Positions 14,601 through 45,481 of a DNA stretch of 64,000 nucleotides are shown here, piece by piece. A model generated the notes under the pieces. That model did no database searches and was not told where the DNA came from. It worked only from the letters and a program-made list of their open reading frames with translations. The DNA comes from Haematobia irritans. Lineage: Eukaryota; Arthropoda; Insecta; Diptera; Muscidae. Each line of letters starts with the position of its first letter. Positions within the stretch are counted from its first letter, which is position 1. The stretch spans positions 69,110,537 through 69,174,536 of the forward strand of contig NC_134401.1 in NCBI RefSeq assembly GCF_050003625.1. Reading direction: 5' to 3'. The translations under genes were made by a program, and so were the position numbers.

Positions 14601-15087
14601 CACTCATAGAAAAAAGTCTGTTATTAATAGCAAACACTGTCTGCTGTTTTTCAGCTATTTTAGCAGTTTTTTTGCTAAAGGTGGGTATTAAGTTCGAGTT
14701 TAGCCGCTAAAATCTTCATTTTTCCACGATTACTTTTCTTAATTAATCCATTTTAAGGAATACAAACTTTGTGAACATTTGCTTTGGGCTATTCCCCACC
14801 AAGTTATAATAAAATTTGCAACAAATATGTATAAATTTTATGCCTTTTTTTACTGATTTAGTTTTCACTTTAGCGATTTTAGCGGCTAAACTCGAACTTA
14901 ATACCCACCTTAAAACAGAATACAATTTGTTATTTTGGAGCAGCAGACAAACTGCAGAAAAGTCAGTAGTTTGCTGAAATTTTCGCTGATGGGAATAAAA
15001 TTACTTCAAACCTTGAACATTTTTTTGGTTGATTTTTTGGTTACCTTTTATCATGAATATATAAATAAAATAATAATAAGAAATAAG
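14601..15087. repeat. Left end of the CACTCA segment, with a MITE
   Basis: 14601-14678 and 14911-15087 contain the TIR-like end and subterminal words such as CAGCAGACAAACTGCAG and TAGTTTGCTG. No gene seen. The MITE at 14679-14910 is inserted in it. Confidence 0.6.
14679..14910. mobile_element. MITE, 232 bp, TIR AGGTGGGTATTAAGTTCG, target TAA
   Basis: The inverted ends match perfectly for about 35 bp, starting AGGTGGGTATTAAGTTCGAG. TAA is duplicated at 14676-14678 and 14911-14913. A 3-bp TWA target points to the PIF/Harbinger group. Fragments of the same family lie in the three array units (near 22545, 26515, 31420) and near 7360. Confidence 0.88.
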
Positions 15088-15505
15088 TCAAAACAAGTCA
15101 ATTTACATTTTTGGAATATTTCAACCAAATTGGGTTTCTTCTTGGGGACATATAAGTCCATATCAGGAGGAAGATATATGTGGGAGCTACATCTAAATCT
15201 GAACCGATGTAAAATTAATTCTACTCCCTGTACAAAATTTAAAGCAAAATAAAGTAAAACTATGGCTCCTGGGACCATATGCGTACATTTCGGGCGATAG
15301 ATATATATGGGAGCTATATCTAAATCTGAATCGATTTCAACCAAATTTGGCATGCATAGCTATAATACTAACCGATTTCACCCAAATTCGGCACACTTTA
15401 CGAAACAGCCAATTGCACTCCTTGTGCAAAATTTAAAGTAAATCAGGCAGAAATTCTGGCTTCTGGGGCAATATTATTCCACAGTGTGGTGCAGGGTATA
15501 AAAAA
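15088..15505. repeat. Dispersed repeat R, short copy
   Basis: Contains GGGAGCTATATCTAAATCTG, ACCGATTTCAACCAAATTTGG-like and ACTCCCTGTACAAAATTT words and ends GTGGTGCAGGGTATAA. The same word set recurs at 38541-39737, 59203-59685 and 61197-62999. Coding potential is not evident. Confidence 0.75.
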
Positions 15506-15549
15506 ACTATTATATATTCTTATTGTCAATTGGAATTTTTATAGGTACC

Positions 15550-16318
15550 TGTTCAAAGTTCACTTGAACAGGGAATTCATACATATGGGTTCCACTGTGG
15601 ATTCATATGTTTGGGTTCCACTGTACATAGCGGACAACTTCAATTTTCGAAATTTCCTTTTGTCCTTCATTTGTTTATTTGGAATGTTTGGAATAGTGAT
15701 TGGAAAATCTCCGTTTAATGGGAAGATTCCAAACATTGACAAATGATCAAATGAAGTTAGTTGAATCTCGCGCGTCGACTATTGAAAATCGTTTTTCTCC
15801 GTTCTGCTCCCCCCGTAAAGTGAATTATCGGAAGTGCCAAGTGTGTGTTGTTTTTTTTTTTTGTCGTATAAACATTTATAATAAATAACAATAAACATTT
15901 AGTGAACAAACAACAGAAATAAAATAAAGATTTTTCTAGGAAGACGTTAATACAAAGTGACCCAACAAACATATAACACTGAGAACACAAGTGAAAGTGA
16001 TGGACACATACAACACAAAAGTGAAAGTGCTGGACACTAATAAAAACTATTGAATTAAAACTTAAACTAATCTTAATCCTCATATTGCACAATTCCCTGA
16101 ATTTTTATTGCACATCTTTGTTTTTATTGCACATTATTTTCCCTTTTTGTATTGCACATTGATTTCCCTTTCTATTGCACATTGTTATTGTTTTAAATAT
16201 AAGTGAAATTTCTATATGAATATTTTATTAAATAAAATTTTGTAAAATTTGAAACTAAATCTAATATCTTATTATTCCGAAAGGCAAAATATAGAAATTT
16301 TCGATTGCGCGCTAAACA
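15550..16318 (+). repeat. BEL 5' LTR (769 bp)
   Basis: TG...CA ends. It contains a cluster of ATTGCACAT words (five) at 16085-16190. The ORFs inside are the same in both LTRs and look accidental. Confidence 0.92.
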
Positions 16319-18170
16319 TTTGGTCCATTGCGAACCGGATCAAAAGTGAGTTTTTTAAATTGTTAAAAAACGTATCTCAAAAACGAAATTAATACCAGTC
16401 ACCCAATTTGTGACCGAGTTTGTGTTTGTCTTTTCCTTCATTTAATAAATTTCAAATTTATAAAATTTAATAATAGTGAAAAACAATAACAAATGTATGT
16501 GCAGTGATCATTTGTGTAATAAAAAGTACAAGTGCAAGTGCGACAGACATACGTGTATAAGTAAACCATCCAAAATAAGGGTGGGTTACATACAAACAAT
16601 ACTAAATGCATTAAATTGCAATATTTAAGTGTTTGTTGATATAAAAAGTTATTGTGGAAAAAATAATAGACAAAAAGTTAATTTGTTTGATGTTTTAATT
16701 TGTTTAATTTGTGGTGGTATTTATTGAAAAAATTACAAAAAAACAATTAAATAATATTCCAAGAAATTGGTGGAAAAGAAACAATTGAAAATATACATAC
16801 AAACAAGTGACAATTGACATAAAACACAAGCCGACCACTAACAAATTAAAACCAATAACAACAACAGGGTGCAACAAAGAAAATAAAACAAATTAAAATA
16901 ATTAAAATTGTTTTTGGTTAATAATTTGTGACAGTGAAAAAAAAAGAAAAATTTGTTAATAACAAATTGTGACACCGTCAAAATTTTACCGTGCAACTTG
17001 GAAAGAATTATAATAATTTGAAAAAAAATTTAGTTCGCATTTTCATATCTTTTAATCAATTTTATTTTTTTTGTAAAAATTTCATATCAAACCCAAGTTG
17101 AACAATAAATTTTTCGACACTAAAATAAAAAATTTTATTAATTGTGCATTTTTCAAAACCCAAATTATTTCGGTACGGTCGGATAATTATTAACAACAAT
17201 AAACTTTTGAAAAAACTGTACGTTTGGACCTTGGACTTTAAAAATTACCGCAATAACGGTCAATTTTCAACGTACAATAAAAAACTAAAGCTAAAGCAAA
17301 ATTTAAAAGACACTACAAAAAAAAAAATCCAATCGACCCAAAGCCAGCAACAAAATTTACATCAACAACAACACAAACGACGATCAAAAAGGCGCAAACA
17401 GGTAACAACAACAATCCCAGACCCACAAAAAATACATCGCAAAGTGAGTACCAATACATACAATAATATTTATTTCCATTCAATTCTTCGAAAACAATTT
17501 AATAATATAAAATTTAATTTTTCGCGAAAGGTTTTAAAATTTTCGGTGTACATTTTTTTTATAAAACTTTTCAAACAAAATCATCTTCGTGAAAATTTTA
17601 AAAATATGTTTCATAATTTTTTAATCAAAAAAAAATTTTTTTTTGAAAAATAATAAAATTAACATTGAACCTTTTCCGTTTTAATATTTTAAATTTAAAA
17701 ATTTAATTTAATATTTCAAAAAATTTTTAAAACTAAAAACAATTTTTTTTGCGGTTCAATTTTTTATTTTTTTTATAAATTTAACTGCGATTTTCATCAC
17801 ATACTAATTCGGTTGTAATTTATAAATTTGATTTCTGCGAAAATTTGAAAAATAAAAATAATTTTTCGTCATTTAGTTACAAATATCTATAAAAAATTGA
17901 ATAAATTTTTATTTTATTATTTCTTTATATATAATTTTAAAATTTTGTTTTCGCTTATAAATCTAGCTTTGACTCAATATCAAATTCTGACCCTTAATTG
18001 ACCCGGGGTTTTTTGTCGTGGTGGGAATTTATAAACAATTCTTTTTGACCGATTTGTCGAATTGACCCGGGGGTTTTTCATCGTTGTGGTTGGGTTTAAG
18101 GGAAGTGACCCGAATTTTTCTTCGGGGAAAATTTAACGAATCTAACCTATTCTTTGAAAACAAGAATTTA
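16319..18170 (+). other. BEL leader, no convincing gene
   Basis: It begins TTTGGTCCATTGCGAACCGG, in the place of a primer-binding site (TGGTCCATTGCG); I do not recognise the tRNA. The rest is 65-80 percent A+T with long A and T runs. An ORF at 17144-17653 is lysine/asparagine-rich and looks like a by-product of composition. A basic Gln-rich stretch near 17330-17410 might be a Gag remnant. Confidence 0.6.
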
Positions 18171-18874
18171 CTTTGGAATTGAAAATTTTCACTTTTGCAG
18201 AAATTGCTTGGCCAGGAGCCACCTGACACCAGATTGCCCAGTTGTGACGGGATGCCGAGAGTGCAGGATCAGGCACCATACCCTGCTTCATGGTGCTCCA
18301 CAACTGGAACCCGTCTTGGGAGTACCTTCGCCACAAATACCGCTGATCCAAGGCAATGCCGAGGAAATGATGCCAGAGGTTGAACTGCCGTATCACCGTT
18401 CTAACGTATTTCTACCGACGGCGGTGGTGAAGGTGGCAGATAATGACTGTGAGCGTTCGGGTTTTGTTGTGCCAATCCGCCCCAATCTCCCGCATAGCGT
18501 ACTCAGTGGTGACAAGATTTGGATTTCCCATAATTCGAAAGGGGGAACATCGGCTGGTGAGGATCGCTCTGCAATCTAGACACCCTAGTCAGCAGACGAT
18601 CTTCAAGGTGGATGCTGTTGTGACTAGGGATTTACCCCGGAGGGTATATTCGGAGGCGATATTAGAGGACCCAAGCGTGGGCTTTCAACATCCGATGGCT
18701 GACCGAGATATTCGGTCAAATGATCCCATAGACCTGGAAATCGGAGGGGACGTTTTTGCTTACCTCAGGCGACGGGACATATCCCTCACGGATCTCGGGG
18801 AAGTGTACGCCCAAAAAACACTTTTGGGGTACATATTTGCAGGACCCACAAATACAGTGACGCTACGAGAGTAA
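18171..18874 (+). pseudogene. BEL Gag zinc knuckles and protease region, broken
   Basis: Frame 1 (from about 18171) has CRNCLARSHLTPDC and CRECRIRHHTLLH, the paired zinc-binding motifs at the end of BEL/Pao Gag. VFLPTAVVKV follows, the usual start of BEL protease. Reading then continues in another frame: SRIAYSVVTRFGFPI, RKGEHRLVRIALQSRH, then IDLEIGGDVFAYL and YAQKTLLGYIFAGP, the end of the protease domain. The shift happens at about 18470, and the G run at 18540-18545 puts the tail of the first frame out as well. The catalytic DTG/DPG-type triad is not readable. Sequence jumps to the 3' LTR region after 18874. Confidence 0.85.
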
Positions 18875-18896
18875 GGTAAGAGCAGCACTTGGTCAC

Positions 18897-18910
18897 TGGG
18901 GGGGGCAGAA
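18897..18910 (+). promoter_or_regulatory. BEL polypurine tract
   Basis: GGGGGGGGCAGAA directly precedes the 3' LTR start TGTTCAAAG. Confidence 0.75.
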
Positions 18911-19689
18911 TGTTCAAAGTTCACTTGAACAGGGAATTCATACATATGGGTTCCACTGTGGATTCATATGTTTGGGTTCCACTGTACATAGCGGACAACT
19001 TCAATTTTCGAAATTTCCTTTTGTCCTTCATTTGTTTATTTGGAATGTTTGGAATAGTGATTGGAAAATCTCCGTTTAATGGGAAGATTCCAAACATTGA
19101 CAAATGATCAAATGAAGTTAGTTGAATCTCGCGCGTCGACTATTGAAAATCGTTTTTCTCCGTTCTGCTCCCCCCGTAAAGTGAATTATCGGAAGTGCCA
19201 AGTGTGTGTTGTTTTTTTTTCGTATAAACATTTATAATAAATAACAATAAACATTTAGTGAACAAACAACAGAAATAAAACAAAGATTTTTCTAGGAAGA
19301 CGTTAATACAAAGTGACCCAACAAACATATAACACTGAGAACACAAGTGAAAGTGATGGACACATACAACACAAAAGTGAAAGTGCTGGACACTAATAAA
19401 AACTATTGAATTAAAACTTAAACTAATCTTAATCCTAATATTGCACAATTCCCTGAATTTTTATTGCACATCTTTGTTTTTATTGCACATTATTTTCCCT
19501 TTTTGTATTGCACATTGATTTCCCTTTCTATTGCACATTGAATTATTGCACATTGTTATTGTTTTAAATATAAGAGAAATTTCTATATGAATAATTTATT
19601 AAATAAAATTTTGTAAAATTTGAAACTAAATCTAATATCTTATTATTCCGAAAGGCAAAATATAGAAATTTTCTATTGCGCGCTAAACA
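18911..19689 (+). repeat. BEL 3' LTR (779 bp)
   Basis: Nearly identical to 15550-16318. It has an extra ATTGCACATTGAATT unit near 19545 (six ATTGCACA words against five) and a shorter T run near 19215. The right flank GTACC repeats the left flank. Confidence 0.92.
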
Positions 19690-21007: not shown

Positions 21008-21661
21008 CACTGAAAAAAATATTGTCGTGAGGTCAAAGATTTCATGTCTTTAGAATACGAATGCAAATTTTGCTTAGCATGTAAGACGCATTTCTCTAAT
21101 ATAAAGTTTTTTTCCTTGTCCAAAAGTCAATCAACTTTTCAATGAAGTTTGAATTGTCCTTACAATTAAGTGATTTTACTTAAAAATGTGTATCATAACA
21201 TGAAAGATAAAATTTTTGGTGTAAGGTTAACGTGACTTTAATAATTCAGAAAAAATCTTTAAAATTAATAAAATTGTATTTTAATTTGTTTCCTGTTTGC
21301 ATCTTGCCTACAAAGCAAAACATCGTTAAAAAAATAGGATATGTTTTTCAACACCTTATTTTAAAGACGTTTTTTACTTGAAACATAGCATAATTTCTAC
21401 TGGAAGTCGAGTCTTAATTTGGAAAATAAAGTTATCGTTTACTCGTTTTTAGAGGAATTTGATAGCATCTGACGAAAGAGTCTGAAAAAATTAAAAATTA
21501 ACATTTGCTTCCAGAAACAAGTACACAAAACCCAAATTTAAAAGAGAATTGCGTCTTTAAAGTATCCTTACTTGTATTCTCCGCTTCTTTGGCTCGGAAT
21601 CAATACCCAAATTGTTAAAGTAAAGACAAAATCTTTGGAACCGGGCATGCTTTTTTCAGTG
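21008..21661. mobile_element. CACTGAAAAAA-ended element, full copy
   Basis: Starts CACTGAAAAAAATATTG and ends with the inverse of CACTGAAAAAAGCATGCC. TA flanks both sides. No ORF. Half copies start units B and C of the array (25428-25681, 30331-30590), and inverted relics lie at 59686-59970 and 60450-61085. The array duplication breakpoint falls inside this element at 21409. Confidence 0.75.
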
Positions 21662-24600
21662 TACAAATCCCTATTATTTAAACCCGTTTTTGGATAAACT
21701 TTTATTTATTGTGTAACAAAAACACATTTTCGGTACTCATTTTCATAAGGGAGAGCGAAAAACTAAAAAAACGCATGAGTATCTCAGACGTAGATAAGCT
21801 GTTTAGGGTTAAGGTAAGTACTATGTTTAGTTTTCAAGCTGAAATCAATTTCACGGTAATTTTCACCGTAACTTTTTTAATCGATTAATTTAGAGATATT
21901 AAATGTTTCGCTATCAATACATTAGATCTTTTCCAACTATAATTGAATTTAAATAACTGTAGTCGTCTTCATATATATGTTTGCTCTTTTAATTTAGTGT
22001 TTTCGTGAAAAAAAACCGTACATAGTAGATACCTAAATGTGAACGAACCATTATTTTTTATCAACAGAACAAAAACGCAACTATATTAGCTGGCCGGCTA
22101 TTAGATCAAATGTCAACTCTGTTTTTAGTGCCATTCTTAAGCGAGCTTAGCAAAGCAGTGCGGGAAAATAAAATGTATCGGATAAAACATATAATATTAA
22201 ATATTTATATATACAATTTATTTTGTGTGATTGCGGTAAAAGACTTTGGTAAGTTTTATTTACCACATTCCTCGGCTTAAATCTACTTTAGTACAAGTGG
22301 TCCGATATTGGAATTAGCCGCCATCGCACATAATCATCCTAAATGTAATATATTTAGAATAAAATGGACCCTGAGAGATGTTCGCGTTAGCCCACTTTGG
22401 GCTCTGTCCATAGGTGAAAGTCTCAAACCCCGGCCGAAGGCCGTCCACCTATACCCAATTTTAAAGGGTCGGTATCTCGAAAACTACGCTCTTCCGACAA
22501 AAATTTTACTTAATATTTTCTGCTTAAAATGTACTATTTTTACCAAAAGGTGGATATTAAGTTCGAGTTTAGCGGCATTTTTTCACTGAAGTGAAAACTA
22601 AATCAGCAAAAAAGGCATAAAATTATACATATTTGGAATATAAGGAAATAAAAACGACATCTTTACTCCTAGAGGACTTGGCAAAACAAATAGCCGTGCT
22701 ATTTCCTAAAGAATCAAGCGTACGTATCACTAATAGAAAAAGGGTCAGCTAAAAACAGCAGTATTGAGCGAACATCAAATTGTAAATTCTTTTTGCCTTA
22801 AAAAAACCGAACTAAAAATGTATTTTTGTATATTGTTGCACGCCAGTACACTTTAAAAATTCCTAAATTTGATCAGCAAACAGTTTGGTCGTTTTATAAC
22901 TCACTACAATACAATATTACTATATAGTTTTTATTCTATTTTCAATTTTATTATTTGTTTCATGTAATTAAAGCATATTTTAGTGAAATCGAGTTTAAAA
23001 AAGTAGCAGATATTTCAACAAAAAGTAACCGGTTTCCGTTTTTCATTGAACTTTTTGTTGTTTTAGCAGACTTTTCCTATGTCTACAAACAAATTTCTTT
23101 AGGTGAACTTTTGCTCTAATAATTTTCTTTTTCCAGGAATCGTGGTACACTAAAATTCTTGGACAAAGAGCAAAAGGCTGGATCGTTTCGGAAAGATACA
23201 ATATTAGGAGACAATGCAAGGGATCAATGACGGAAGTAAATACAAATGATATTGATTGAACGGGAACGATCAAAAAATTTAATATAAATGAACTAATTTT
23301 CATGAACAAAAATAAACTAATATTAGCTTTCACAATAGACTGAAAAGTCTCTTAGAGTCTGCAATATCGAACCTACACCTAACCTAATATCAGCTTTAGA
23401 AATAACAAAACTTTTGTTGACTCAAAAATAAATTATAACCTTTTGCCTTTTCTTTAATAGATGAAGAATTTGCATCAAAACGTAGCTGGCTGAAATTCAA
23501 CAAAACAAACTCCGCTGAAATTTTACAAATTTGGAGCGAGACTTCAAATCAAAGGACGCGCTAAATACGCAAGAATGCAGCCATAGACGACGTTTTTATA
23601 GAATGGCCATCTTACAAATTGCCCCTTGCATTGGCAAGTTTCAAATGAGTATTTCATTATTTTTATGCATTTTATGAAAATGTTAAACTTTATTTATACG
23701 TATTTCCATTTTAGATTGAAATCGATTTTAAAACCTTGTATCCATCAGCCGACAAAAAGATCTATGGGAAATGGGAAATTTTTGAAAAAAATATCCTTGC
23801 CTTCTACAAGTTACACATAAAGGACTCTAACGCAAAGGAGCTACTAAAGAACTTATTGGACCAAGAAAAGTCTCTTTGCGAAGGTAAGTATTTCCGTTCG
23901 TGATATTTGTTTTGCTACGTAACATGTGGAAAGATTGTATTTGATAAGAAAAAAAGTAAACTGGTTTATTGGGAAAATATACTACCTGCTAAATTAATTT
24001 CCATAATATATTCTTATAAAGACAATTTACTCACATACATTTGTAACCGAAGCTATTTCGTTTCTTAAAAACAATTAGTTAAAAGTAAAGAATAAATCAT
24101 TGGCGTCAAATACTAATCTATCAAGGGAATGCAAATTTCGAAAATGAACGTCCCAAATTTAATATAAACTATTTTTATTTATTTTATTAAAGAATTTAAA
24201 ACCATGATAAATTATGATATTAAATAAGATATGTACTAACAACAAAGGTTTTCGACCTAGTAATATAAAATTTTTAAAACAAATATTACCAATTCTTTCG
24301 GTAATTTTTATTTAAAATTCCTTTAACACAGAAGTATTTATTAATTGCTGTTTTACTTATTTTCATTGCAGACACCCGTAACACAATTCTTCTTTATTTG
24401 CTCCCCGCAATTTTAAAAACCAAAAGTTTTAAGGAAAACAATAAAACTCGGATATACAATTGCTGAAAGTCAAGAAAACATTTTGAAGATTTTTCGACAT
24501 CAAAATACTATTGCAACATTTAATGGACATCCGTGTATTTTTCTAAATGGCGAAAACCTATTCGAATTAAACGGCGTCTATGTGGCGTATAGAGATATTT

Positions 24601-25427
24601 TATACAAATGTGAAACTATAATAAATGGAATCGCAACATGCTTCCATTTATTTTTCGTTTTTAATTTAAAGTACCCGCCGCAAGCGGAAAATATTTGGAC
24701 ATTCGTTCAAAACTATTTTTTTGAAATCAATTTAAATTCAGACACCTTTTCAGGTGATTCAAAATCGTTAATAGCCTATTTAAATGAACATAAGTAGTAA
24801 AGTCGTGCTTTATTCGATGTACCCTATGTAACTTGAAAGACTGATTTCGATTTACTTCACAAATTTACTAAATCCATTCATTTACGGATTTCAATGTATC
24901 CGCCGCAATAGGCTAATGTTTGGATATTCGTTTAACATTAACTTTTTTATATTAATATAAATTCTTTATGTTCTTTAATATATGAGAAATCTATTAATAA
25001 TTAAGTGGAAAACAATAGTTCCTACAAACATTGTTATAAACAAAATGTATGTAAAATATATACATAAAAATCTTAAATATCAATTTCGTATTTAAATGAA
25101 TTAAGTACTATGTTATAAATTCGATGCACCTTATGTAACTTAAAATACTGAATATGTTATACCGTATGTAATATGAATATCTACCGAATGTAACATAAAA
25201 TACTGAATTCGATTTATTTCATACAGTCAATAAAAATCTGTGAATTTTAGTTTAAAATGTCGATAAAAAATAGTTTATTGCTAAGACAACAAATATTTGT
25301 AGTTGTTATAACAGAAAAATATTAGCTATTTCAACTAACGCAGTTTGCTATTTCAGCAGCGATATGTATCAAACATTTTAGCTAACACGTTTGCTAATTC
25401 AGCAGTAGTTCAGCTAATTCAGAAGGC
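21409..25427 (+). repeat. Tandem array unit A (4.02 kb)
   Basis: Runs from GAGTCTTAATTTGG to TCAGAAGGC; the next unit begins with the same GAGTCTTAATTTGG at 25428. Contains one degraded copy of the unknown gene and a tail rich in GCTATTTCAGCA-like words. Near-identical to B and C except that it alone has 21790-22130 in unscrambled form. Confidence 0.88.
22173..24797 (+). pseudogene. Unknown multi-exon gene, copy A
   Basis: Likely exons: 22173-22248 (MYRIKHIILNIY..., hydrophobic, donor GTAAGT), 23137-23235 (ESWYTKILGQRAKGW), 23461-about 23600 (EEFASKRSWLKFNKTNS, one stop), 23715-23883 and 24372-24797. The last two join in phase through GAAG/GTAAGT...GCAG. Conserved words include TLYPSADKKIYGKWEIF, ILLYLLPAI and YPPQAENIWTFVQNYFFEI. 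From memory, this pattern resembles a large family of uncharacterised, multi-copy arthropod proteins, sometimes labelled SAMD3-like; function unknown. This copy has an in-frame stop and a 2-bp deletion near 24454 (compare copy C). An additional 93-codon ORF at 22308-22589 is present in all three units but probably non-coding. Confidence 0.6.
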
Positions 25428-25789
25428 GAGTCTTAATTTGGAAAATAAAGTTATCGTTTACTCGTTTTTAGAGGAATTTGATAGCATCTGACGAAAAAGT
25501 CTGAAAAAATTAAAAATTAACAGTTGCTTCCTAAAAACAAGTACACAAAACCCAAATTTAAAAAAGAGAATTGCGTCTTTAAAGTATCCTTACTTGTATT
25601 CTCCGCTTCTTTGTCTCGGAATCAAAACCCAAATTGTTAAAGTAAAGACAAAATCTTTGGAACCGGGCATGCTTTTTTCAGTGTACAAATCCCTATTATT
25701 TAAACCCGTTTTTGGATAAACTTTTATTTATTGTGTAACAAAAACTCACATTTTCGGTACTCATTTTCATAAGGGAGAGCGAAAAACTA

Positions 25790-26115
25790 AAAAACGCATG
25801 AGTATAATTGAATTTAATTAATAATTTAATTAATTAATATAAATGAACTAATTTTCATGAACAAAAATAAACCAATATTAGCTTTCACAATAGACTGAAA
25901 AGTCTCTTAGAGTCTGCAATATCGAACCTACACCTAACCTAATATCAGCTTTAGAAATAACAAAACTTTTGTTGACTGAAAAATAAATTATAACCTTTTG
26001 CCTTTTCTTTAATAGATGAAGAATTTGGACATCCGTGTATTTTTCTAAATGGCGAAAACCTATTCGAATTAAACGGTGTCTATGTGGCGTATAGAGATAT
26101 TTAGCAAAGCGAGCT
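25790..26115 (+). pseudogene. Scrambled mini-copy of the unknown gene in unit B
   Basis: Built of pieces that in unit A are separate: about 21780, then 23277-23473, then 24517-24602, then back to about 22134. The exon pieces join in frame: DEEF from exon 3 runs into GHPCIFLNGENLFELNGVY from the last exon and stops at TAG after AYRDI. The same block is present in unit C (30690-31010), so C and B share this event and A does not. Confidence 0.75.
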
Positions 26116-27211
26116 TAGCAAAGCAGTGCGGGAAAATAAAATGTATCGGATAAAACATATAATATTAAATATTTATATATACAATTTATTGTGTGTGATT
26201 GCGGTAAAAGACTTTGATAAGTTTTATTTACCACATTCCTCGGCTTAAATCTACTTTAGTACAAGTGGTCCGATATTGGAATTAGCCGCCATCGTACATA
26301 ATCATCCTAAATGTAATATATTTAGAATAAAATGGACCCTGAGAGATGTTCGCGTTAGCCCACTTTGGGCTCTGTCCATAGGTGAAAGTCTCAAACCCCG
26401 GCCGAAGGCCGTCCACCTATACCCAATTTTAAAGGGTCGGTATCTCGAAAACTACGCTCTTCCGACAAAATTTTTACTTAATATTTTCTGCTTAAAATGT
26501 ACTATTTTTACCAAAAGGTGGATATTAAGTTCGAGTTTAGCGGCATTTTTTCACTGAAGTGAAAACTAAATCAGCAAAAAAGGCATAAAATTATACATAT
26601 TTGGAATATAAGGAAATAAAAACGACATCTTTACTCCTAGAGGACTTGGCAAAACAAATAGCCGTGCTATTTCCTAAAGAATCAAGCGTACGTATCACTA
26701 ATAGAAAAAGGGTCAGCTAAAAACAGCAGTATTGAGCGAACATCAAATTGTAAATTCTTTTTGCCTTAAAAAAACCGAACTAAAAATGTATTTTTTGTAT
26801 ATTGTTGCACGCCAGTACACTTTAAAAATTCCTAAATTTGATCAGCAAACAGTTTGGTCGTTTTATAACTCACTACAATACAATATTACTATATAGTTTT
26901 TATTCTATTTTCAATTTTATTATTTGTTTCATGTAATTAAAGCATATTTTAGTGAAATCGAGTTTAAAAAAGTAGCAGATATTTCAACAAAAAGTAACCG
27001 GTTTCCGTTTTTCATTGAACTTTTTGTTGTTTTAGCAGACTTTTCCTATGTCTACAAACAAATTTCTTTGGGTGAACTTTTGCTCTAATAATTTTCTTTT
27101 TCCAGGAATCGTGGTACACTAAAATTCTTGGACAAAGAGCAAAAGGCTGGCTCGTGTCGAAAAAATACAATATTAGGAGACAATGCAAGGGATCAATGAC
27201 GGAAGTAAATA

Positions 27212-32166: not shown

Positions 32167-32497
32167 TGGTGTTTTCTTTTCTGAAAAAAGTGCTTTGCCT
32201 TCATTTTGTCTGTACAGAATGCGCATTTTTAAAATGTTACCAGCAACCTAAAAAAATGCTATCATTTCAGCGGGCAGAAAAGAATTCAAGGAAGGAAACA
32301 GGGCAATCGCAGCACTCTCGTTTGTTGGCAGTGCTGAAAATGCCCGTAATTTGCCCCTATGCGTGGCGATATTTTCACAACAGAATTCGAAGCCTTTTCG
32401 CACTTTTGCCTGTTTTTTTAGAAAAGAACCTAAAAAGTACATTTTCCGGGCAAAATGCAAAAAAAGTACGCATTTTTTACAAGAAAAGAAAACGCCA
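32167..32497. mobile_element. MITE, 331 bp, TGG(T/C)GTTTTCTTTTCT ends, target TAA
   Basis: Ends TGGTGTTTTCTTTTCT and, inverted, TGGCGTTTTCTTTTCT. TAA is present on both sides (32164-32166 and 32498-32500), and units A and B give the empty site GAACTAATTTTC. PIF/Harbinger-type target. No coding capacity evident. Confidence 0.9.
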
Positions 32498-32821
32498 TAA
32501 TTCTCATGAACAAAAATAAACGAATATTAGCTTTCACAATAGACTGAAAAGTCTCTTAAACTGCGTTCGCACTAGACACGAAATCGTCGTAAACGAGGAT
32601 TTTGGCCGAAATCCTCCTAAATCTCAGTAGATTTGCAATGGGAAAATATCAGCTGATTTTACGAGGATTTGGACGAAATCTCTTTAAAATCTCGAATACC
32701 TTCACTGTGCAACGCTGAGTTTAGAACATTCCGTTCTAAATTGTAATAAATTGTACAACGCTGTGTCTGTATAGAAACAAATTTTTTCACTCGACATTTC
32801 ATTAGGAAGTAAAGCGTTTCA

Positions 32822-35800
32822 ATGGAAAAGTAAGTATTAAATTTAATTTTTGTTTAAATACTTACAAATTATAAATATTATAGGCGAAAGTATAAGAACA
32901 AAGCAAACTGGAGTTCGGATGCCGAAGCTTGCCTGATGCATGTGTGGAGGGATAATACATCCAAGTTACGAGGTGCAAGGAAACAAAGCCACACATTGCA
33001 TGACATGGCGAAGGAAATGACAAAGTTTGGCTACCAATTTTCAAAAGACGAAATAAAAATCAAAATCCACAATTTAACCAACAAATACCGGTGTGAGAAA
33101 AAAAAGGTTGGTCCTTCTGGAGGTACACCATCAAGTTGGAGTTGGTTTGAGGAAGTACATGCCATTATAGGATCACAATCCTGCAATAATGCCGAAGAAT
33201 TGATGGAAGATAATTTTACAACAGGTACATTGTCACATTCGTAAAAAACACACCGTCAGTTTGTTAGTAGATTTCAGACGTGTTTGCAAAACTATGCAGT
33301 TGGTTATGCATAAAATACACAATCTCAAAGAATTATTTTCTGAAATTTCCTTTTGTTATTTTCGTAAAGAGCCAATTCAAATAATTCTTACTGCATTTGT
33401 TTTTGTGTGGGATATAATCTGTAGTGAGTACTCTATTTTTAATACCCACCAACACAGGATGTGGGTACTCAAATTTTGTTATTCCATTTGTAACGCTTCG
33501 AAATATTGGTCTCAGACCCCATAAAGAATACATATTCTTGATCGCAGTGAAATTCTGAGTCGATCTTGAAGAGAAAATTTCATTCCGTCTGACAGAAATT
33601 TCGTACGTGATGTGTATTGATATGCCATCTAACAATGATGCAAAAATGTGTCATCGTTTCACAATCATTAGCGTAGCTAGAAAATTTTCCTAGGGGCTAT
33701 AGCCCCCCTAGCAAAAAATTTATAGGCTGAACTTTAATAAAATTGAGTAAAAAATTAAACATCAAAACAACTCGACAATTGATTATTGACAATTAAGCAA
33801 CTAACGGCTCCGTTTGGCTTTAACTGCCAGTTAACAGAAAGTGAATTTGCAAATATCTACTCTCCGGTTAACTTTAACTGAAAAATTATCAGTAGTTAAA
33901 TTTCCAACTGCCATGGGGAATTCATGAAAAACGGGGTGAAAGTACGATTTTCCCAAAAAAAAAAAATTGTGCATTGTTCTAAAGGCACAAATTTAAAAAG
34001 TACTTCCAATTATTTCCTCAATTATTTTACTACAGATGAAGTTTTTGTTTTCCAAAAAAAAAGAGTAAGGATATATAAAATGGTACAAATTATTCAAATT
34101 TTGCCTCAAATATGCTAAATCCATTATAGAAAAATCGATAATTTTTGAAAATAGTTGAGAGAAAACGTTTCAAACAAGCGTCAGAATGCATTAAAAATCA
34201 TAAAAAAGTTAAAAATTATTTATTTATCATAAAATTTTTTAATTCACATTCAAAACAATGAAATCGTATCAGACCTTAAGAAGTGATGGAAATTCATTGC
34301 AACGGCTGTTGAAACGGTGGACATTCGTCCTATGACAAGTTCGTAGAACATTCATTGCTTCTCCGTCAATTTTGCACTACTTCCGGACCCAAAAAGAACA
34401 TTTTCACCTCTTTTTGCAGCATTATTAAGATACAAATTTATGAAAGAATAGCTTTAATATCAATTACTATTTTTTAATTAATTTGACGAGACTAAACCAA
34501 TCATAAGTTCAACCACAGCTTTATTTTATAAATATCAGACTTTAAACATTGCCATCGGCAACTGCTACCACAACCCAAGTAATTTGATTGTGCATAGAAG
34601 TCTTTAGCGGAACTTTGTGCGATAGTAAATACTTATTTAATTTTTATAACAATTAAAAAAAAAATATTGACATTTATTGAAAAATGGAAAATCGTAAACA
34701 GGGTTTCAAATTCTGGGGGGCTAACATTTTTCTAGGGGGGGTTTATGCCCCCTCCCCAGAGGCCTTCCTACGCTTATGTTCATAATTATATATTTATAAA
34801 CAGACCAAGAAGTAAAATGACTTGTATATGAATTCATTCAACCTTTTTTATATTACATAGTTTTCATTTGAACGAACTTCGTTATGGACGAAGTACAAAA
34901 AGTACAATACATTTCTTCTCCTTTCTCTTTTATCAAATCAACGGCTAGAGAAATTGCAATTATTGTTTTACAAAATTTCTTCCTGGTGTTATTGGAATGT
35001 TGTCTGCCTTAAACGGTGCTGACAGGCTATTAATTATGCTGTCTAAGTTCCAAAGTTTCCTTGAGTTTGTTATAGCTTCTGGCTTTATTTCAACATTTGC
35101 CAGTTATCTGTCACTTTGCGCCATTTCTTGATTGCCATCCTTAATATCTCTTTCCAATCTCCGACCATTCTAGAAGAATGTTGCCTCGACAACGAACATC
35201 ACGATGGAAAGTCACCTAATAAAAAATGGAAGTACTTAACAATAACAAAGCCCCGATCTTTTGTCATGTTTTAAAATCAATAAAAATATTGCACTTACAC
35301 ATCAACGGGTCCATCTTCGTTCATCAAACCCTGGGATACACCATCAAACTTCTTTTGGGCTTCTTCATATGCCAGTGTATCTAGTTCATCTTATTCTTCT
35401 TCTTCCTGGCAAAGTAATGCTAAACCAAATCCACCAAATATCATTGTCGACTAGGGCTGTCGTTCGGGTTTGATTTTTAAAAATCCCGGGATTTCAAAAT
35501 TCAGAATCCCGGGATCCCGGGATTTTTTCGGGATCCCGAAATGTCCGGGATTCTATAAATATTTTAAGTAACAACAATCTACAGCGCCAAAAAATTGTTG
35601 TAAATTGAACCAATTTAGTTTAATTCATTTTATGAACAAAAAACTAAAGACAAAACAATATTAAAAAGTAATTTTAAATTGCTATCATACTTAACGAACA
35701 TTTTGTCTAATTCAACATTGTGAAGAAAATAAAAATGTGTTGTGACAAAACTATATAAAAAATCCATTTCATATCGCAATCTCACTCAACAAAACATTTT

Positions 35801-37834
35801 AAGGTCTGGGTTAGATTATGCGTATCTTCGTATACTTATGTACTTCGTTTTAAGTAAAAATATCAAGACTTCTAAATTGTTATTAGATAAATGCGATCTT
35901 GTCATATTTTCTATTATTTTATTCTATTATTTTACACACAAAAATTTTTTTTTCTGATTCAATCACCAAATTAATTGATCCAATTAATTTTTTAATTGAA
36001 ATGTCTTCAATCACGAAAATGATAGCATCAATCACAGTTTTAATTGGGCATAGAAAAAATTCTTGATTAAAAAATTAATTGATTTTTTCAGCAAATTTCA
36101 ATTAATTTTTTAATTGAATTAATTAAAAATTTAATTGATGTTGATTGCAAAACTCAAATAATTTATTAATTAAAAAAGGTAACTATTTTTAATTACTTTT
36201 TGAATTGGCTTAAAGTTTTTATTTGGATTAACAAATGATTGGTTGAAATACATTTTTCATTAAAAATTTAAAAAAATTAGCACTTTTTTTAACTGAATTA
36301 ATCTTCCGAATTTGATTAAAAAGTTAATTGTATCAATTAATTTTTTAATTAAAAATTTTAAAATGTTCAATCATTGACTTAATTAACTTAATTTTCTATC
36401 ATGATTAAAAAGTTAATTGTATCAATTAATTTATTAATTGAAAAAATTTTCAACTTCAATTAACTTTTTAATTGGAAATATTTTGGTGATATTTTTTTCT
36501 GTGTATGTAGTGTTCCATTTCACATGAACTCATTATTCAAAGAACCATGACTTTTGCGGACTCGATTTTTGATGAAATTGTGCTGTTCAATATACCCCAT
36601 GTATAACAAATTCTTACTCAAGGTGTACCATAAATGTTTATTAACTCAATTTGTCGGTTATGAAATCTAACGGCGGTTTACAATGAGTGAAAACTCCAAT
36701 TTATTAATAAACAACCATAAAAGCCCACAATTTTAGCAAATTTGAATTACTTTTTCGGGATCCCGAAAAATCCCGGGATTAAAAATAAAAAATCTCGGGA
36801 TTCGGGATAAATCCCGTCTCGAAAATCCCGGGATTTCGGGACGGGATTTGTCCCGGGTGACAGCCCTATTGTCAACGATATTTGTTTTGCCGTCTCAATG
36901 TGTTCGTTAAGGTTTTCGATGTTAGCCTCTATTAACTTAGGAACTTCTTTATATTTCAACCAACGATAGGAAATGTGAATTCTTGTGAGATATTCGATTT
37001 CGCGACAAATTTTCTGAAAATCCATATATGTAGCTCGTTCTCTTGGTAGTGTATTGGTTTCCCGAACCTTAGCGTCCTTCTGTTCAATCATTTTCGTTGT
37101 TGCTCCCGCTCGGTTTCGTACATGCTTCCTCCTCTATCATGGAAAAATTTGAAAAGTGCCATAAAATTTAATACTATGAAACGATACTACAGTACCCATC
37201 AATGCTGTCTTACCTCATGTGGATTCATATTTAATGTTTTATATTTGATTTCTACAGAAAATGTTCTCAAAATTTTATTTCTACAGAAAATATTTTGTCT
37301 AAATCGGTTCAGATTCAAATTCATGCATATGGGTATATAAATGTTTATATAGCTCGCATTTACGGTACCGATACCACCCCAAAAAAACTTGTTTTTATTA
37401 ATATTATTAAAGTAAGCAGTAAAATAATGTTTAATCGGCTACATCCTTTTCTTTTAGCTACTATGGGCAGTGAAAATGTAAAGTGGAGCGAACTCGAAAT
37501 TTTAGAAGACAACGAAAATGAATTTATATTCTCCCAGACGTTGGATCAGCCAACAGTTTCAAGAGCTAAGCGGGCGCGAACATCGTCGTCATCATCTGAA
37601 TGCTCTTCTGCGCCGTGCATTCAAAAGGCCTCTCGGAGAAAAAAGAAAAACACTTACGACGATGTTCTCACCGTAATGAAAAATACGGAAAATATTTTGC
37701 GACAGGAATGCGAAGACAGAAAAAAAATCGATGAAGAACTTCTGAAAATTCAGAAGGAGCAATTGTATCTGGAAAAAGAAAAAAATGAAATTGAAAGAGA
37801 GAGGAATGCTATTTTAAAAAATATGTTGCTTTAA
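32822..37834 (+). CDS. Harbinger Myb/SANT-like protein, three exons, apparently intact
   Basis: Exons 32822-32829, 32884-33224 and 37458-37834 give 241 codons plus stop. Donors are GTAAGT and GTACAT; acceptors are TTATAG and TTTTAG. All phases agree across both introns. Residues about 10-105 form a Myb/trihelix-like DNA-binding domain (WSSDAEACLMHVWRD, then IKIKIHNLTNKYRCEKKK and SSWSWFEEVHAIIG). A Ser-rich linker with a basic KRAR patch and a C-terminal coiled coil (EERKKIDEELL-like, LEKEKNEIERERN) follow. In this superfamily the Myb-like protein recruits the transposase to DNA and the nucleus. The second intron is 4.2 kb because it took in other elements. Confidence 0.85.
33225..33665. other. 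Myb intron, part with dispersed-repeat R remnant
   Basis: 33440-33620 (CAGACCCCATAAAGAATACA, ATTCTGAGTCGAT) resembles the end of repeat R at 59560-59610 in inverse. The rest is unassigned. Confidence 0.5.
33666..34778. mobile_element. CATTAGCGTAG element, copy 1 (8-bp target)
   Basis: 1.11 kb with ends CATTAGCGTAGCTAG and, inverted, CATAAGCGTAGGAAG. Subterminal CTAGGGG/CCCCCTAG motifs. Flanks TTCACAAT and TTCATAAT form an 8-bp duplication with one mismatch. An 8-bp target fits hAT or P superfamilies. No transposase ORF. It lies in the Myb intron. Confidence 0.82.
35030..37091 (-). pseudogene. SMC2-like (condensin) gene fragment, interrupted by a hAT-like element
   Basis: At 36877-37091 the minus strand reads MIEQKDAKVRETNTL, RERATYMDFQKICREIEYL and TRIHISYRWLKYKE, which matches my memory of the first coiled coil of SMC2 just after its ATPase head. 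At 35300-35391 it reads LAYEEAQKKFDGVSQGLMNEDG, also SMC2-like. A GTAAGT donor at about 35297 and an AG acceptor at about 35222 suggest retained introns, so it is a DNA-level copy. Further ORF sequence at 35036-35110 (ANVEIKPEAITNSRKLWN) is not identified. The stretch lies in the Myb intron. Confidence 0.55.
35452..36868. mobile_element. hAT-like non-autonomous element with ATCCCGGGAT subterminal arrays
   Basis: Ends TAGGGCTGTC and its inverse. 8-bp duplication TTGTCGAC / TTGTCAAC (35444-35451 and 36869-36876). The first 100 and last 120 bp are packed with copies of ATCCCGGGAT, the sort of subterminal site hAT transposases bind. The middle is AT-rich and holds a second repeat at about 35932-36504 with many AATTAATTTTTTAATTG palindromes and ends ACACA...TGTGT. 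Confidence 0.82.
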
Positions 37835-38264
37835 ATGAATGAGAAAAGTTTAATTTTAAATATTGAATTTTTATTAAAAATTATATTGTATTTTAACAAT
37901 GTTCCCAAATAGTGTGAAACACATTACATACAATACTCAGTATTTCTGTTTTTTCTTCAAACAATTAAAATATACATTTAATTTCCTTTTAGAGTAATAA
38001 TTTGTTTAAAAAACAAGAAAACTAAAAACATTTAGAGTAAATGAACTTATTGAATTTATAATAAAAATCTATACTTTTTTAAAATAGTGTGAAACACAAA
38101 TAGTTCTTAGTACTTCTAGTATTTATTTAAAGCAATTTGAATTTTTAATTTAATTTTAGTTTATGCTTTTTGTTTTAAAAACCAAATAAAAACTATATAA
38201 TATTGCACAAGAAACGCTCTCATTGAATAGTTCTCGAATTTCATGTTATGTTATGGCCTGCAAA
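37835..38264. other. 3' flank of the Myb gene, duplicated
   Basis: Two imperfect copies about 175 bp apart of a stretch ending AATAGTGTGAAACAC (37910, 38083). No coding sequence. Probably the space between the two convergent Harbinger genes. Confidence 0.5.
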
Positions 38265-38514
38265 GGTTAGGTTAGGTTTCCATGTTAAGCTCAATGACAA
38301 GGGACCTCCTTTTTATAGCCGAGCCCGAACGGCGTTCCACATTGTAGTGAAACCGCTTAGAGAAGCTTTGTAACCCTCAGAATGTCACCAGCATTAATGA
38401 GGTGGAATAATCCATTAGTGGAAAACTTTTTGGTGTTAGGTCGAAGCAGGAATCGAAACCAAGACCTTGTGTATGCAAGGCGGGCATGCTAACCATTGCA
38501 CCATGGTGGCTCGC
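38265..38514 (-). repeat. tRNA-derived SINE
   Basis: On the minus strand the element starts at about 38514 with a tRNA-like head: GGTGCAATGGTTAGCATGCC (A-box region), then TTGCATACACAAGGTCTTGG and a B box GTTTCGATTCC. The body contains AAAAGTTTTCCACTAATGG and CTTGTCATTGAGCTTAACA. It ends near CCTAACCTAACC. A degenerate copy lies at 20165-20380. Pol III type II promoter inferred from A and B boxes. Confidence 0.85.
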
Positions 38515-38540
38515 ACACGTACATTATATTTTTTGCATAT

Positions 38541-39737
38541 TTATTATACCCTTCACCACTACTGTGGTACAGGGTATAATAAGTTTGTACATTTGTGTGT
38601 AACGCCAAGAAGGAAAAGTCTGAGACCCATCGTTTAGTATACCGATCGTCTTAGAATTGAATTCTGAGTTGATTTAGCGATGTCCGTCTGTCTGTCTGTC
38701 TGTCTGATTGTCCGTCTGTCTGTCTGTCTGTTGGTGTATCTTTGTGTGCCAAGTACAGCTCGCAGTTTTGGTATAGGGTCCTGTTTCGACTCAAAGACGA
38801 TCCCTATTGATTTTGGAAAAAATCGGTTCAGATTTAGATATAGCTGCCATATATATTTTTCACCGATCTGGTCATAATTGGCGTGTATATCAACCGATCT
38901 TTCTTAAATTCCGTACATCCGAATATTTTATGAGTCTCGAAAAACTTGCAAAATAACAGCCAAATCGGTTCAGATCCCATAGCTCCCATACATAGCTTTC
39001 GCCCGATTTAGACTCATTTGCCCACAGAGGCCAATTTTTTGCTCCGATTTAGTTGAAATTTTGCACAGGGAGTAGAATTAGCATTGTAGCTATGCGTGCC
39101 AAATTTGGTTGAAATCGGTTCAGATTTCGATATAGCTCCGATATATAACTTTCGCCCGATTTACACTCATATGACCACAGAGGCCAATTTTTTGCTCCGA
39201 TTTAGTTGAAATTTTGCACAGGGAGTAGAAGTAGCATTGTAGTTATGCGTGCCAAATTTGGTTGAAATCGGATCAGAGTTAGATATAGCTCCCATAAATA
39301 AGTTTTTCTGATTTCGACAAAAATTGTCAAAATACCAACATTTTCCTTGTTAAATCGCCACTGCTTAGTCGAAAAGTTGTAAAAATAACTCTAATTTTCC
39401 TAAACTTCTAATACATATATATCGAGCGATAAATCATAAATAAACTTTTGCGAAGTTTCCTTAAAATTGCTTCAGATTTAAATGTTTCCCATATTTTTAT
39501 ACTAAAATTGTGTTCCACCCTAGTGCATTAGCCAACTTAAATTTTGAGTCTATAGATGTTGTAGAAGTCTATCAAATTCTGTCCAAATCGAGTGATATTT
39601 AAATGTATGTATTTGGGACAAACCTTTATATATAGCACCCAACACATTTGACGGATGTGATATGGTATCGAAGATCTACAAAGTGGTGCAGGGTATAATA
39701 TAGTCGGCCCCGCCCGACTTTAGACTTTCCTTACTTG
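38541..39737. repeat. Dispersed repeat R, long copy
   Basis: Starts TTATTATACCCTTCACCAC and ends GGCCCCGCCCGACTTTAGAC then TTTCCTTACTTG. It has a (TCTG)n run at 38685-38735 and two copies of the 153-bp type unit. The same element in the other orientation is 61197-62999. The transposition mechanism is unknown to me; no long ORF. Confidence 0.82.
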
Positions 39738-40097
39738 TTTTTAATTTTCACTTTTAAAACTCGAACACATTAACTGTCTGTATATATTTTTATTTATGTC
39801 TCTGATTGCATCAGATACTCAGCCAAAAAATTCTCATTTCTCTTCCCTGTATATTGAAATCATAGCTTATTGTATTTGGTGGAGATTTTTTGTTTGTCTT
39901 TTCGCGGTCCTCCATTTCTAACCATTTTTCATTAATTCTGTCATTTTTATATACCTGTAGTCTACTAAAGCAAACAAAACAGTGGAATACCATCCCTTGT
40001 AGTTGTAATAGTCTGACGCTTCCTGCTTTGGAGGATGCACCTCTATATGACATCCATCTGAAAATTCTTAATTGTAATTACTTTTTAAAAGATTTAA
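39738..40097. other. Harbinger sequence with transposase exon 40057-39955
   Basis: Apart from that exon I see nothing. After the exon donor, the expected following transposase exons are missing, and the sequence runs into repeat R. Confidence 0.5.
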
Positions 40098-42113
40098 ATT
40101 AAAGTCATTAGCGTAGCTAGACAATTTTCCTAGGGGGGCTATAGCCCCCCTAGCTGAAAATTTATAGACTGAAGTTATAGTTTCAATTAATGTTTTATTT
40201 CATAAAAATGAATAACAATATAGGCATCAAAATAACTCGACAATTAATTTATAATAAAGCAACTAAATGTAGTTCCACACTTTTCCCAGCAAAAAAATTG
40301 GGAGTTGTTCTAAAGGCACAACTTTAAAAGCACTTCTACACAATTTTAGTCAAAAGATTTAAATTAAAGTCATTAGCGTAGCTAGACAATTTTCCTAGGG
40401 GGGGGGGTATAGCCCCCCTAGCTGAAAATTTATAGACTGAAGTTATAGTTTCAATTAATGTTTTATTTCATAAAAATGAATAACAATATAGGCATCAAAA
40501 TAACTCGACAATTAATTTATAATAAAGCAACTAAATGTAGTTCCACACTTTTCCCAGCAAAAAAATTGGGAGTTGTTCTAAAGGCACAACTTTAAAAGCA
40601 CTTCGAAAAATGTCCTCACAAAGAAGTTAATTATTTTAACTACACAGGAAGTTTTTTACTTGATTTTTTTCATATTTTAATGCGTAATTTTTTGTTTTCT
40701 TTAAAAAAAGTAAGAATAAATAAAGTGGTACAAATTATTCAAATTTTGCCACAAAAATGCTAAATTCATTATAGAAATTTTTATAGAATTTTTGAAAATA
40801 TTCGAGGGAAAACGTTTCAAACAAGCGTTAGAATGCATTAAAAATCATAAAAAATTTAAAAATTAATTATTTTGGAAAATATAACAAAATTTTCTAATCC
40901 ACATTCAAAACACTGAATTTGGATCACAACTTAAGAAGTGATGCAAATTCATTGCAACGGTTGTTGAAACGGTCGACATTCGTTCTATGACAATTTCATA
41001 TCACATTCATCGCTTCTCCGCCAAGTTTGCACCACTTCCGGACCCAAAAAGAACATTTTCACTTCTTTTTGGCTATGCTTTTTTGCAGCATTATTAAGAT
41101 ATTAATTTATGAAAGAATAGTATCAATTACTATTACAATTACTATTTTTTTTAATTAAATTTGCTAAACCAGACTAAACACAATAATAAAGGAGCTTTAG
41201 TTATTCAACTAAATCAAAAGTTCAACCACAGATTTATTTTATAAATATTCAGATTTCGGCAACTGCTACCACAACCAAAGTAATTCGATTGTGCATGAAA
41301 GTTTTCAGCGGAACTCTGTGCGGTTGTATATACTTGGTTAATTTTTAGAAAAATGTAAAATCGTAAATAGGTTTTCAAATTCTGGGGGGGGCTAAAATTT
41401 TTCTGGGGGGTCTAAGCCCCCTCCCCAGAGGCCTTCCTACGCTTATGATTAAAGTACAAACCTATTGCTCCAATACATTGGGGAAGTCCCATTTGTTGGA
41501 AGCCTTGTATGCACTCATTAATTTTATGGCTTGCTCCAAAATCTGGAGGTAAGTACTTTGGAGCCATTTGTTTCCATACTTCTTCGCAAAACTCTATCAG
41601 GATATCATGCACGGTTGACTTTCCCACACCAAATAGTTGCGATATAGTCATATATTCCGCTGAAGATTTTAAAGCGTATAATGCAATCGCAACCCTTTTT
41701 TCTAGCGGTATGCATTTGCGGAAAGTGTTGTCGGTTTTAGCAATCGCCTTTACATGCTTGCAAAGAATGAAAAAAAGAGTTTCGGGACATTCTAAAGGTC
41801 TCTTTAAAAGCTTGACCTGTCATTGTGGGGACATCGATTTCCCAGAAAAAGCTAGATCTTGGCTATAATTCGAATTTAAATAAAAAATCTCCTACAAATC
41901 TCATATATAATTATACATACGTGTATCCACAATTTTTTGGCGTCATTCAGGGCTAATTTCAAAAGATTTAAATGAAATTGGCCCATCACAATTTTGATTT
42001 TGGCTCTTTTCTGCCTTTTTAATATGGTTGCAATTTTGGTTTTGTTTTTTTTTTTCCATTTTAGCATGTATTAATGCAAGTTTTATTAATAACTGTTTTC
42101 CTCTACCAGACAT
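39955..42113 (-). pseudogene. Harbinger DDE transposase, N-terminal half, broken
   Basis: Start MSGRGKQLLIKLALIHAKME at 42113. An 11-A run at about 42050 shifts the frame. The next part (41868-41462) reads WEIDVPTMTGQAFKETFRMS, then, after a T-run frameshift near 41775, FRKCIPLEKRVAIALYALKS, LFGVGKSTVHDILIEFCEE and GLPQCIGAI. The codon for the first catalytic Asp is split by an intron (G at 41462, AT at 40057-40056); the next exon, 40057-39955, reads GCHIEVHPPKQEASDYYNYK and GWYSTVLFALVDYR. The other two catalytic acidic residues are not present in the window. In PIF/Harbinger elements the protein cuts at TWA targets. Confidence 0.88.
40106..41447. mobile_element. CATTAGCGTAG element, copy 2, with partial tandem duplication
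   Basis: The complete element is 40371-41447. Its left 265 bp, including 19 bp of left flank, are also present at 40106-40370. Target copies ATTAAAGT stand at 40098-40105, 40363-40370 and 41448-41455. It sits in the transposase intron of Harbinger, just inside the donor site. Same family as 33666-34778. Confidence 0.85.
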
Positions 42114-44320
42114 CTTAAATCAAGTAATTAAAAAATAAACAATTATTCAATGTTTGGTTTTTCTATTTGTAAACAAAAACAGCTGTTAAATCCTCAAATC
42201 TACGAAATCTCGTTATTTTGCCAGTCCGAACACCTGAGATTTGTAAAGAGATTTGAGTTCTAAATAGAGAGATTTCGTGTCTAGTGCGAACGTAGTATTA
42301 GAGTCTGCAATATCGAACCTACACCTAACCTAATATCAGCTTTAGAAATAACAAAACTTTTATTGACTCAAAAATAAATTATAACCTTTTGCCTTTTCTT
42401 TAATAGATGAAGAATTTGCATCAAAACGTAGCTGGCTGAAATTCAACAAAACAAACTCCGCTGAAATTTTACAAATTTGGAGCGAGACTTCAAATCAAAG
42501 GACGCGCTAAATTCGCAAGAATGCAGCCATAGACGACGTTTTTATAGAATGGCCATCTTACAAATTGCCCCTTGCATTGGCAAGTTTCAAATGAGTATTT
42601 CATTATTTTTATGCATTTTATGAAAACGTTAAACTTTATTTATACGTATTTCCATTTTAGATTGAAATCGATTTTAAAACCTTGTATCCATCAGCCGACA
42701 AAAAGATCTATGGGAAATGGGAAATTTTTGAAAAAAATATCCTTGCCTTCTACAAGTTACACATAAAGGACTCTAACGCAAAGGAGCTACTAAAGAACTT
42801 ATTGGACCAAGAAAAGTCTCTTTGCGAAGGTAAGTATTTCCGTTCGTGATATTTGTTTTGCTACGTAACATGTGGAAAGATTGTATTTGATAAGAAAAAA
42901 GTAAACTGGTTTATTGGGAAAATATACTACCTGCTAAATTAAATTCCATAATATATTCTTATAAAGACAATTTACTCACATGCATTTGTAACCGAAGCTA
43001 TTTCGTTTCTTAAAAACAATGAGTTAAAAGTAAAGAATAAATCATTGGCGTCAAATACTAATCTATCGAGGGAATGCAAATTTCGAAAATGAACGTCCCA
43101 AATTTAATATAAACTATTTTTATTTATTTTATTAAAGAATTTAAAACCATGATAAATTATGATATTAAATAAGATATGTACTAACAACAAAGGTTTTCGA
43201 CCTAGTAATATAAAATTTTTAAAACAAATATTACCAATTCTTTCGGTAATTTTTATTTAAAATTCCTTTAACACAGAAGTATTTATCAATTGCTGTTTTA
43301 CTTATTTTCATTGCAGACACCCGTAACACAATTCTTTATTTGCTCCCCGCAATTTTAAAAACCAAAAGTTTTAAGGAAAACAATAAAACTCGGAGATATA
43401 CAATTGCTGAAAGTCAAGAAAACATTTTGAAGATTTTTCGACATCAAAATACTATTGCAACATTTAATGGACATCCGTGTATTTTTCTAACTGGCGAAAA
43501 CCTATTCGAATTAAACGGCGTCTATGTGGCGTATAGAGATATTTTATACAAATGTGAAACTATAATAAATGGAATCGCAACATGCTTCCATTTATTTTTC
43601 GTTTTTAATTTAAAGTACCCGCCGCAAGCGGAAAATATTTGGACATTCGTTCAAAACTATTTTTTTGAAATCAATTTAAATTCAGACACCTTTTCAGGTG
43701 ATTCAAAAATCGTTAATAGCCTATTTAAATGAACATAAGTAGTAAAGTCGTGCTTTATTCGATGTACCCTATGTAACTTGAAAGACTGATTTTGATTTAC
43801 TTCACAAATTTACTAAATCCATTCATTTACGGATTTCAATGTATCCGCCGCAATAGGCTAATGTTTGGATATTCGTTTAACATTAACTTTTTTATATTAA
43901 TCTAAATTCTTTATGTTCTTTAATATATGAGAAATCTATTAATAATTAATTGGAAAACAATAGTTCCTACAAACATTGTTATAAACAAAATGTATGTAAA
44001 ATATATACATAAAAATCTTAAATATCAATTTCGTATTTAAATGAATTAAGTACTATGTTATAAATTCGATGCACCTTATGTAACTTAAAATACTGAATAT
44101 GTTATACCGTATGTAATATGAATATCTACCGAATGTAACATAAAATACTGAATTCGATTTATTTCATACAGTCAATAAAAACCTGTGAATTTTAGTTTAA
44201 AATGTCGATAAAAAATAAAGTTTATTGCTAAGACAACAAATATTTGTAGTTGTTATAACAGAAAAATATTAGCTATTTCAACTAACGCAGTTTGCTATTT
44301 CAGCAGCGATGTTTGTCAAA

Positions 44321-44510
44321 AACTTTTAGCAAACAAGTTTGCTAATTCAGCAGCATTTGTTTGCTATTTTAGCTGTAAAAAATGTTTGCTGTTTCAACTA
44401 ACCAATGTTTGCTGAAACAACTACATGCTACTGCTGTCCTTTTTCAGCAAACAAAATCTGCTGTTTTAGCAAACATTTTTGCTATTATTAGTAACAAAAT
44501 TTTTTGAGTG
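44321..44510. repeat. Right end of the CACTCA segment
   Basis: Dense array of words such as TTTGCTGTTTCAACTAACC, CAGCAAACAAAATCTGCTG and TTTTAGCAAACATTTTTGC in both orientations, ending TTTTTTGAGTG with TA beyond. The tails of units A and B resemble the first part of it. Confidence 0.65.
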
Positions 44511-45458: not shown

Positions 45459-45481
45459 GTGTGGTGGGATATTAGGCCACC

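Follow-up and report, generated by a model that had tools for sequence, protein, structure and literature searches.

In Haematobia irritans, a 29.9-kb segment on contig NC_134401.1 (assembly GCF_050003625.1) is a real, decayed insertion of a transposon with a TA target, and within it an uncharacterised animal gene is present as an array of three broken copies. The segment occupies positions 14601-44510 of the window, that is, of the whole 64,000-nucleotide stretch that was analysed (contig positions 69,110,537 to 69,174,536). Taken as a whole, it is best explained as a transposon of approximately 6 kb that inserted into the spacer of a long interspersed nuclear element (LINE) and carried the gene, which was later amplified and decayed; this reading is given a probability of roughly 0.55.

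The segment has imperfect inverted ends, CACTCA...TGAGTG, and direct reading finds a TA on either side (14599-14600 and 44511-44512), so that inverted ends and flanking target copies, as in a class II element with terminal inverted repeats, occur together here. Read from 14599, the left end is TA followed by CACTCATAGAAAAAAGTCTGTTATTAATAGCAAACA; read on the opposite strand from 44512, the right end is TA followed by CACTCAAAAAATTTTGTTACTAATAATAGCAAAAATG. The left terminus (14601-14678, plus strand; TACACTCATAGAAAAAAGTCTGTTATTAATAGCAAACA) extends to the point where another element has inserted and contains the CACTCA end together with subterminal words; inverted, it imperfectly matches the right terminus (44200-44510, minus strand; TACACTCAAAAAATTTTGTTACTAATAATAGCAAAAATG on the reverse strand). 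The anchored end-to-end match scores 48. The best of 10,000 dinucleotide shuffles scored 36, and none of the 10,772 oriented TA pairs lying 2-45 kb apart in the window came up to 48; when TA pairs were drawn without limits on orientation or distance, two of 5,986 did. The tips alone are unremarkable, as the window contains three copies of TACACTCA and six of TGAGTGTA; it is the matched pair that is special.

Behind the tips, the word AGCAAA/TTTGCT is concentrated. It occurs 100 times in the window, nine of these lying in the segment's final 310 bp, where 0.49 would be expected, and when 6,360 overlapping windows of 310 bp were scanned, all 13 that contain nine such words fell on the segment's right end. 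On the left there are two in the first 78 bp (0.12 expected) and one in 14908-15010 (0.16 expected). The initial annotation had described these ends, the TA beside them and the subterminal words, and all three are supported here.

The interior holds an array of one multi-exon gene, as had also been proposed, and both self-comparison and direct reading bear this out. Three units follow one another on the plus strand: unit 1 (21403-25405), unit 2 (25422-30308), which carries a mariner-type insertion, and unit 3 (30325-44353), which is split by two insertions. Divergence is 0.52% between units 1 and 2, 1.20% between 1 and 3 and 1.16% between 2 and 3. Self-comparison aligns units 1 and 2 at 98.6% with the right part of unit 3 and on into the right terminus, as far as 44353; the end of unit 1 is itself a match to right-end subterminal DNA. 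As both units run into this DNA, the gene and the right end adjoined each other before the array was formed. No other observation speaks as strongly for the gene having been a component of the element as this older junction.

Exon borders are approximate, having been placed by eye. A possible first coding exon of unit 1 runs from an ATG to a GTAAGT donor (21776-21814, plus strand). In units 2 and 3 this region is supplanted by filler (25834-26102 and 30735-31003, respectively), made up of pieces of 194 bp and 76 bp that resemble the gene itself, at 23279-23472 (99%) and 24525-24600. The filler looks like the product of templated repair of a break. A stop in the middle exon, in the inferred frame, is common to all three units, so the array is probably dead; the frame of the last exon differs among the units.

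The spliced protein and the last exon gave no match in the protein database, and the gene product received no Pfam or NCBIfam name. The consensus sequence of a protein family served as the family query; among 268 candidates it matched eight proteins at E ≤ 0.01, with values from 1.4e-27 to 3.4e-12. These proteins, P0001-P0008, comprise two entries from Apostichopus japonicus, which judging by their names are isoforms of one protein, one each from Holothuria leucospilota and Macrosiphum euphorbiae, and four 'lgn' entries. A profile built from the eight matches three of the 1,480 open reading frames (ORFs) in the window, all of them last exons: 24371-24797 in unit 1 (ORF 24417-24794, E 2.9e-28), 29320-29697 in unit 2 (E 2.2e-28) and 43250-43729 in unit 3 (E 2.4e-26), each on the plus strand. 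The next ORF in the window reaches 0.15, and no shuffled ORF does better than 0.29. As the consensus was written after the window had been read, selection of the eight may be biased towards the window's sequence, yet all are database entries and the profile contains no letters from the window. The last exon therefore encodes the C-terminal module of a real, unnamed animal protein family, in agreement with the initial annotation. Upstream exons align at 34% over 229 columns, solely with the consensus sequence.

Within the C-terminal module, the columns that are strictly invariant when the window copies are included are P, G, C, F, F, N, Y, P, W, F and Q. The copies thus share the conserved C-F-F-N-YP-W-F-Q columns of P0001-P0008, but lack the invariant Q, D and K columns of the eight proteins, and their stop lies further upstream. 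An RNase-H-like fold had been named as one to look for in the protein, an idea to which this module lends no support. No acidic residue in it is strictly invariant once the window copies are included, although one Asp (D144 of P0002) is nearly so. Its predicted structure (on P0002, ten rows) is of moderate confidence, with a predicted local distance difference test score of 73.5 and a predicted template modelling score of 0.68, and fold searches with it gave no convincing structural match. Judged by its conserved columns, the module gives no sign of a DDE centre.

A rather unlikely alternative is that an ordinary non-autonomous TA element chanced to capture a gene fragment, from the host or from another element, and that the family is unlinked to the ends. 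Such an event would fit the damaged state of the gene, which has a fragment of a miniature inverted-repeat transposable element (MITE) directly 5' of its second exon (by direct reading) in addition to the stop common to all units. It would also fit the presence of CAC...A-run tips with TA flanks on elements here that show no gene. Two other families in the window, at 21008-21661 and 35935-36503, have ends of this kind. Against this alternative stands the junction of the gene with the right subterminal region, which is older than the amplification.

The pattern TACAC, one to six bases, AAAAA occurs 20 times in the window against 3.63 expected, a count that includes overlapping matches and repeated units and was reached by none of 100 shuffles. 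Similar tips were also found in a sample of the genome, of which 206 kb was taken and 202 kb searched, less than 0.02% of an assembly of more than 1.15 Gb. The family with CACTGAAAAAA ends, represented at 21008-21661, has the same tip after TA at sampled loci L073 and L074, whereas its copies at 60466-61092 and on L088 have no clean TA tip. One further candidate end pair, scoring above cross pairs, was found on L072 at 1476-3595. Its TA-flanked CACTG/CACGG ends are backed by repeated TATGTTT words, an element-like layout with other words. As CAC...A-run ends with TA are found on other elements, the ends of the present element are probably one variant of a common TA-target type and, by themselves, not a new kind. 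The earlier suggestion of an undescribed kind of transposon is therefore not supported, similar tips being present on the two window families and on L073 and L074. The family may be highly multi-copy in arthropods, as the initial annotation proposed. The gene query found just three short matches in the sample, all explained by a dispersed repeat: within an intron, about 90 bp (24172-24275) resemble L084:2377-2465, L084:4333-4429 and L073:3346-3434, with opposite orientations of the two copies on L084.

The insertion site lies between ORF1 and ORF2 of a LINE read on the minus strand. To the right is ORF1 (44674-45471), labelled from sequence and position and without a LINE match in Pfam, and to the left is the start of ORF2 (13761-14432), which a stop divides into two open pieces and of which 13761-14231 contains an endonuclease (PF14529, 6e-08). 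Once the flanks are joined, ORF1 and then ORF2 follow in the expected order and the same direction, with the stop within the ORF2 start.

Several points weigh against the favoured explanation. The left end, the right end and the family profile each gave no match in the 202 kb searched, a result with which thousands of copies in the genome would still be compatible. Much of the stretch from the left end to the gene is made up of other repeats, and the gene could have come into the element within another, unseen element. Finally, the LINE stretches at the two insertion edges are alike (score 92, against a shuffle mean of 58.7 and a best of 90 in 1,000 shuffles), and to that extent the empty site falls short of a clean one. 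This likeness is read here as an old tandem repeat of the LINE spacer, the alternative being a meeting of two LINE copies. That the ends belong to two separate insertions, and that the gene array was brought into the spacer by rearrangement, would agree with the similar stretch of ~85-100 bp at the edges, but is improbable, as the ends match each other far above chance and share the same TA, and the flanks give ORF1 and then ORF2 in one direction.

The nested insertions reported in the initial annotation are present, and subtracting them together with the two extra gene units leaves ~6 kb by hand arithmetic on the coordinates, close to the 6-7 kb estimated before. From left to right, a MITE (14679-14910) has AGGTGGGTATTAAG ends and TAA flanks, by direct reading. 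It is followed by an element of the long terminal repeat (LTR) type (15550-19689), whose direct repeats, 15550-16318 and 18911-19689, are 96.8% identical in self-comparison and whose ORF at 18109-18579 has no Pfam match. Next comes the nested TA-flanked element at 21008-21661. In unit 2, a mariner/Tc1-type element, so typed by eye (27212-28144, minus strand), has TA flanks, AAGGGTGATT ends and an ORF (27319-27990) without a Pfam match at 0.1. Unit 3 contains a MITE (32167-32497) with ends TGGTGTTTTC and GAAAACGCCA and TAA flanks, and a PIF/Harbinger-type element (32559-42297) with TTA flanks and ACTRCGTTCGCAC ends. The latter carries a Myb/SANT ORF (32858-33244, plus strand; Pfam Myb, 2.9e-16) and a weak helix-turn-helix ORF (41412-41819, minus strand) whose match to HTH_Tnp_4, at 0.026, is below the cut-off. 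These two ORFs are convergent, and further repeats lie inside the element.

For the element's own DNA, 35 ORFs of at least 45 amino acids were considered, drawn from its left segments (20), from unit 1 beyond 22600 (14) and from the right end beyond 43700 (1), with later insertions excluded; no Pfam transposase family was found in any of the 35.

From these observations a history can be proposed. A cut-and-paste DNA transposon of ~6 kb with a TA target would have entered the LINE spacer. Its ends consist of CACTCA and an A-run, and the subterminal AGCAAA/TTTGCT words resemble transposase binding sites, a role that is putative. One multi-exon gene of the uncharacterised family would have been its cargo, placed against the right end. 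The interior may then have been amplified to three tandem units, probably through faulty gap repair, which is proposed because units 2 and 3 hold filler copied from the gene itself. The gene is broken today, and the element has been cut up by insertions of the LTR, mariner and Harbinger types and by MITEs. As the element has no recognisable transposase of its own, it was most likely mobilised by one supplied from elsewhere, and the gene may have been a passenger or a helper.

The element is probably of a known kind, and a stable partnership between gene and ends is possible, though unproven. The broader proposal, that the uncharacterised family is regular cargo, or a transposition protein of a new type, of a group of elements that target TA and have subterminal words behind ends of the CACTCA type, is doubtful. 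It is difficult to account for unnamed gene families common to aphids and sea cucumbers, and if the proposal were true, a regular link with transposons would explain the presence of this family in sea cucumbers as well as in flies and aphids. A set of annotations now labelled 'uncharacterized protein' would then have to be counted as mobile DNA. A copy inside a transposon, joined to its end, offers a concrete and cheap test of transposition as the cause of this spread.

Other repeats are found in the window. Between open pieces of another LINE lies an element (47539-56183) with 404-bp direct end repeats that are 99% identical and long retroelement-like ORFs, of Gypsy type by eye. A long, near-perfect foldback at 11366-12854 has arms of 466 and 273 nt that are 98% complementary. 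A 153-bp tandem repeat occupies 61887-62534; one block of it lies inverted at 38962-39305, and diverged copies are found inside the element at 15143-15371.

Three groups of known DNA transposons invite comparison. PIF/Harbinger elements occur here as the nested insertion in unit 3, with 3-bp TTA/TAA target copies. The present element lacks the 3-bp TWA target of this group, its flanks being ...TTTATA and TAGTAA..., with just TA in common. CACTA/Mirage/Chapaev (CMC) elements have a CACTA or CACTG tip, may have a 2-bp target copy and carry clustered subterminal words. The element resembles them in its CACT tip, 2-bp target copy and clustered words. It departs from them in that the tip reads CACTC at both ends, the fifth base being C rather than A or G, and no CMC transposase is among the Pfam matches of its ORFs. 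Tc1/mariner elements and the MITEs with a TA target are bounded by short inverted ends with A/T runs following the tip, and include copies without transposase. The element shares these traits and has TA on both sides; it differs from this group in carrying, within 14601-44510, a gene of another family, and its own DNA is without a DD(D/E) transposase, the mariner-type ORF belonging to a nested insertion, although a non-autonomous Tc1/mariner copy would equally lack one of its own.

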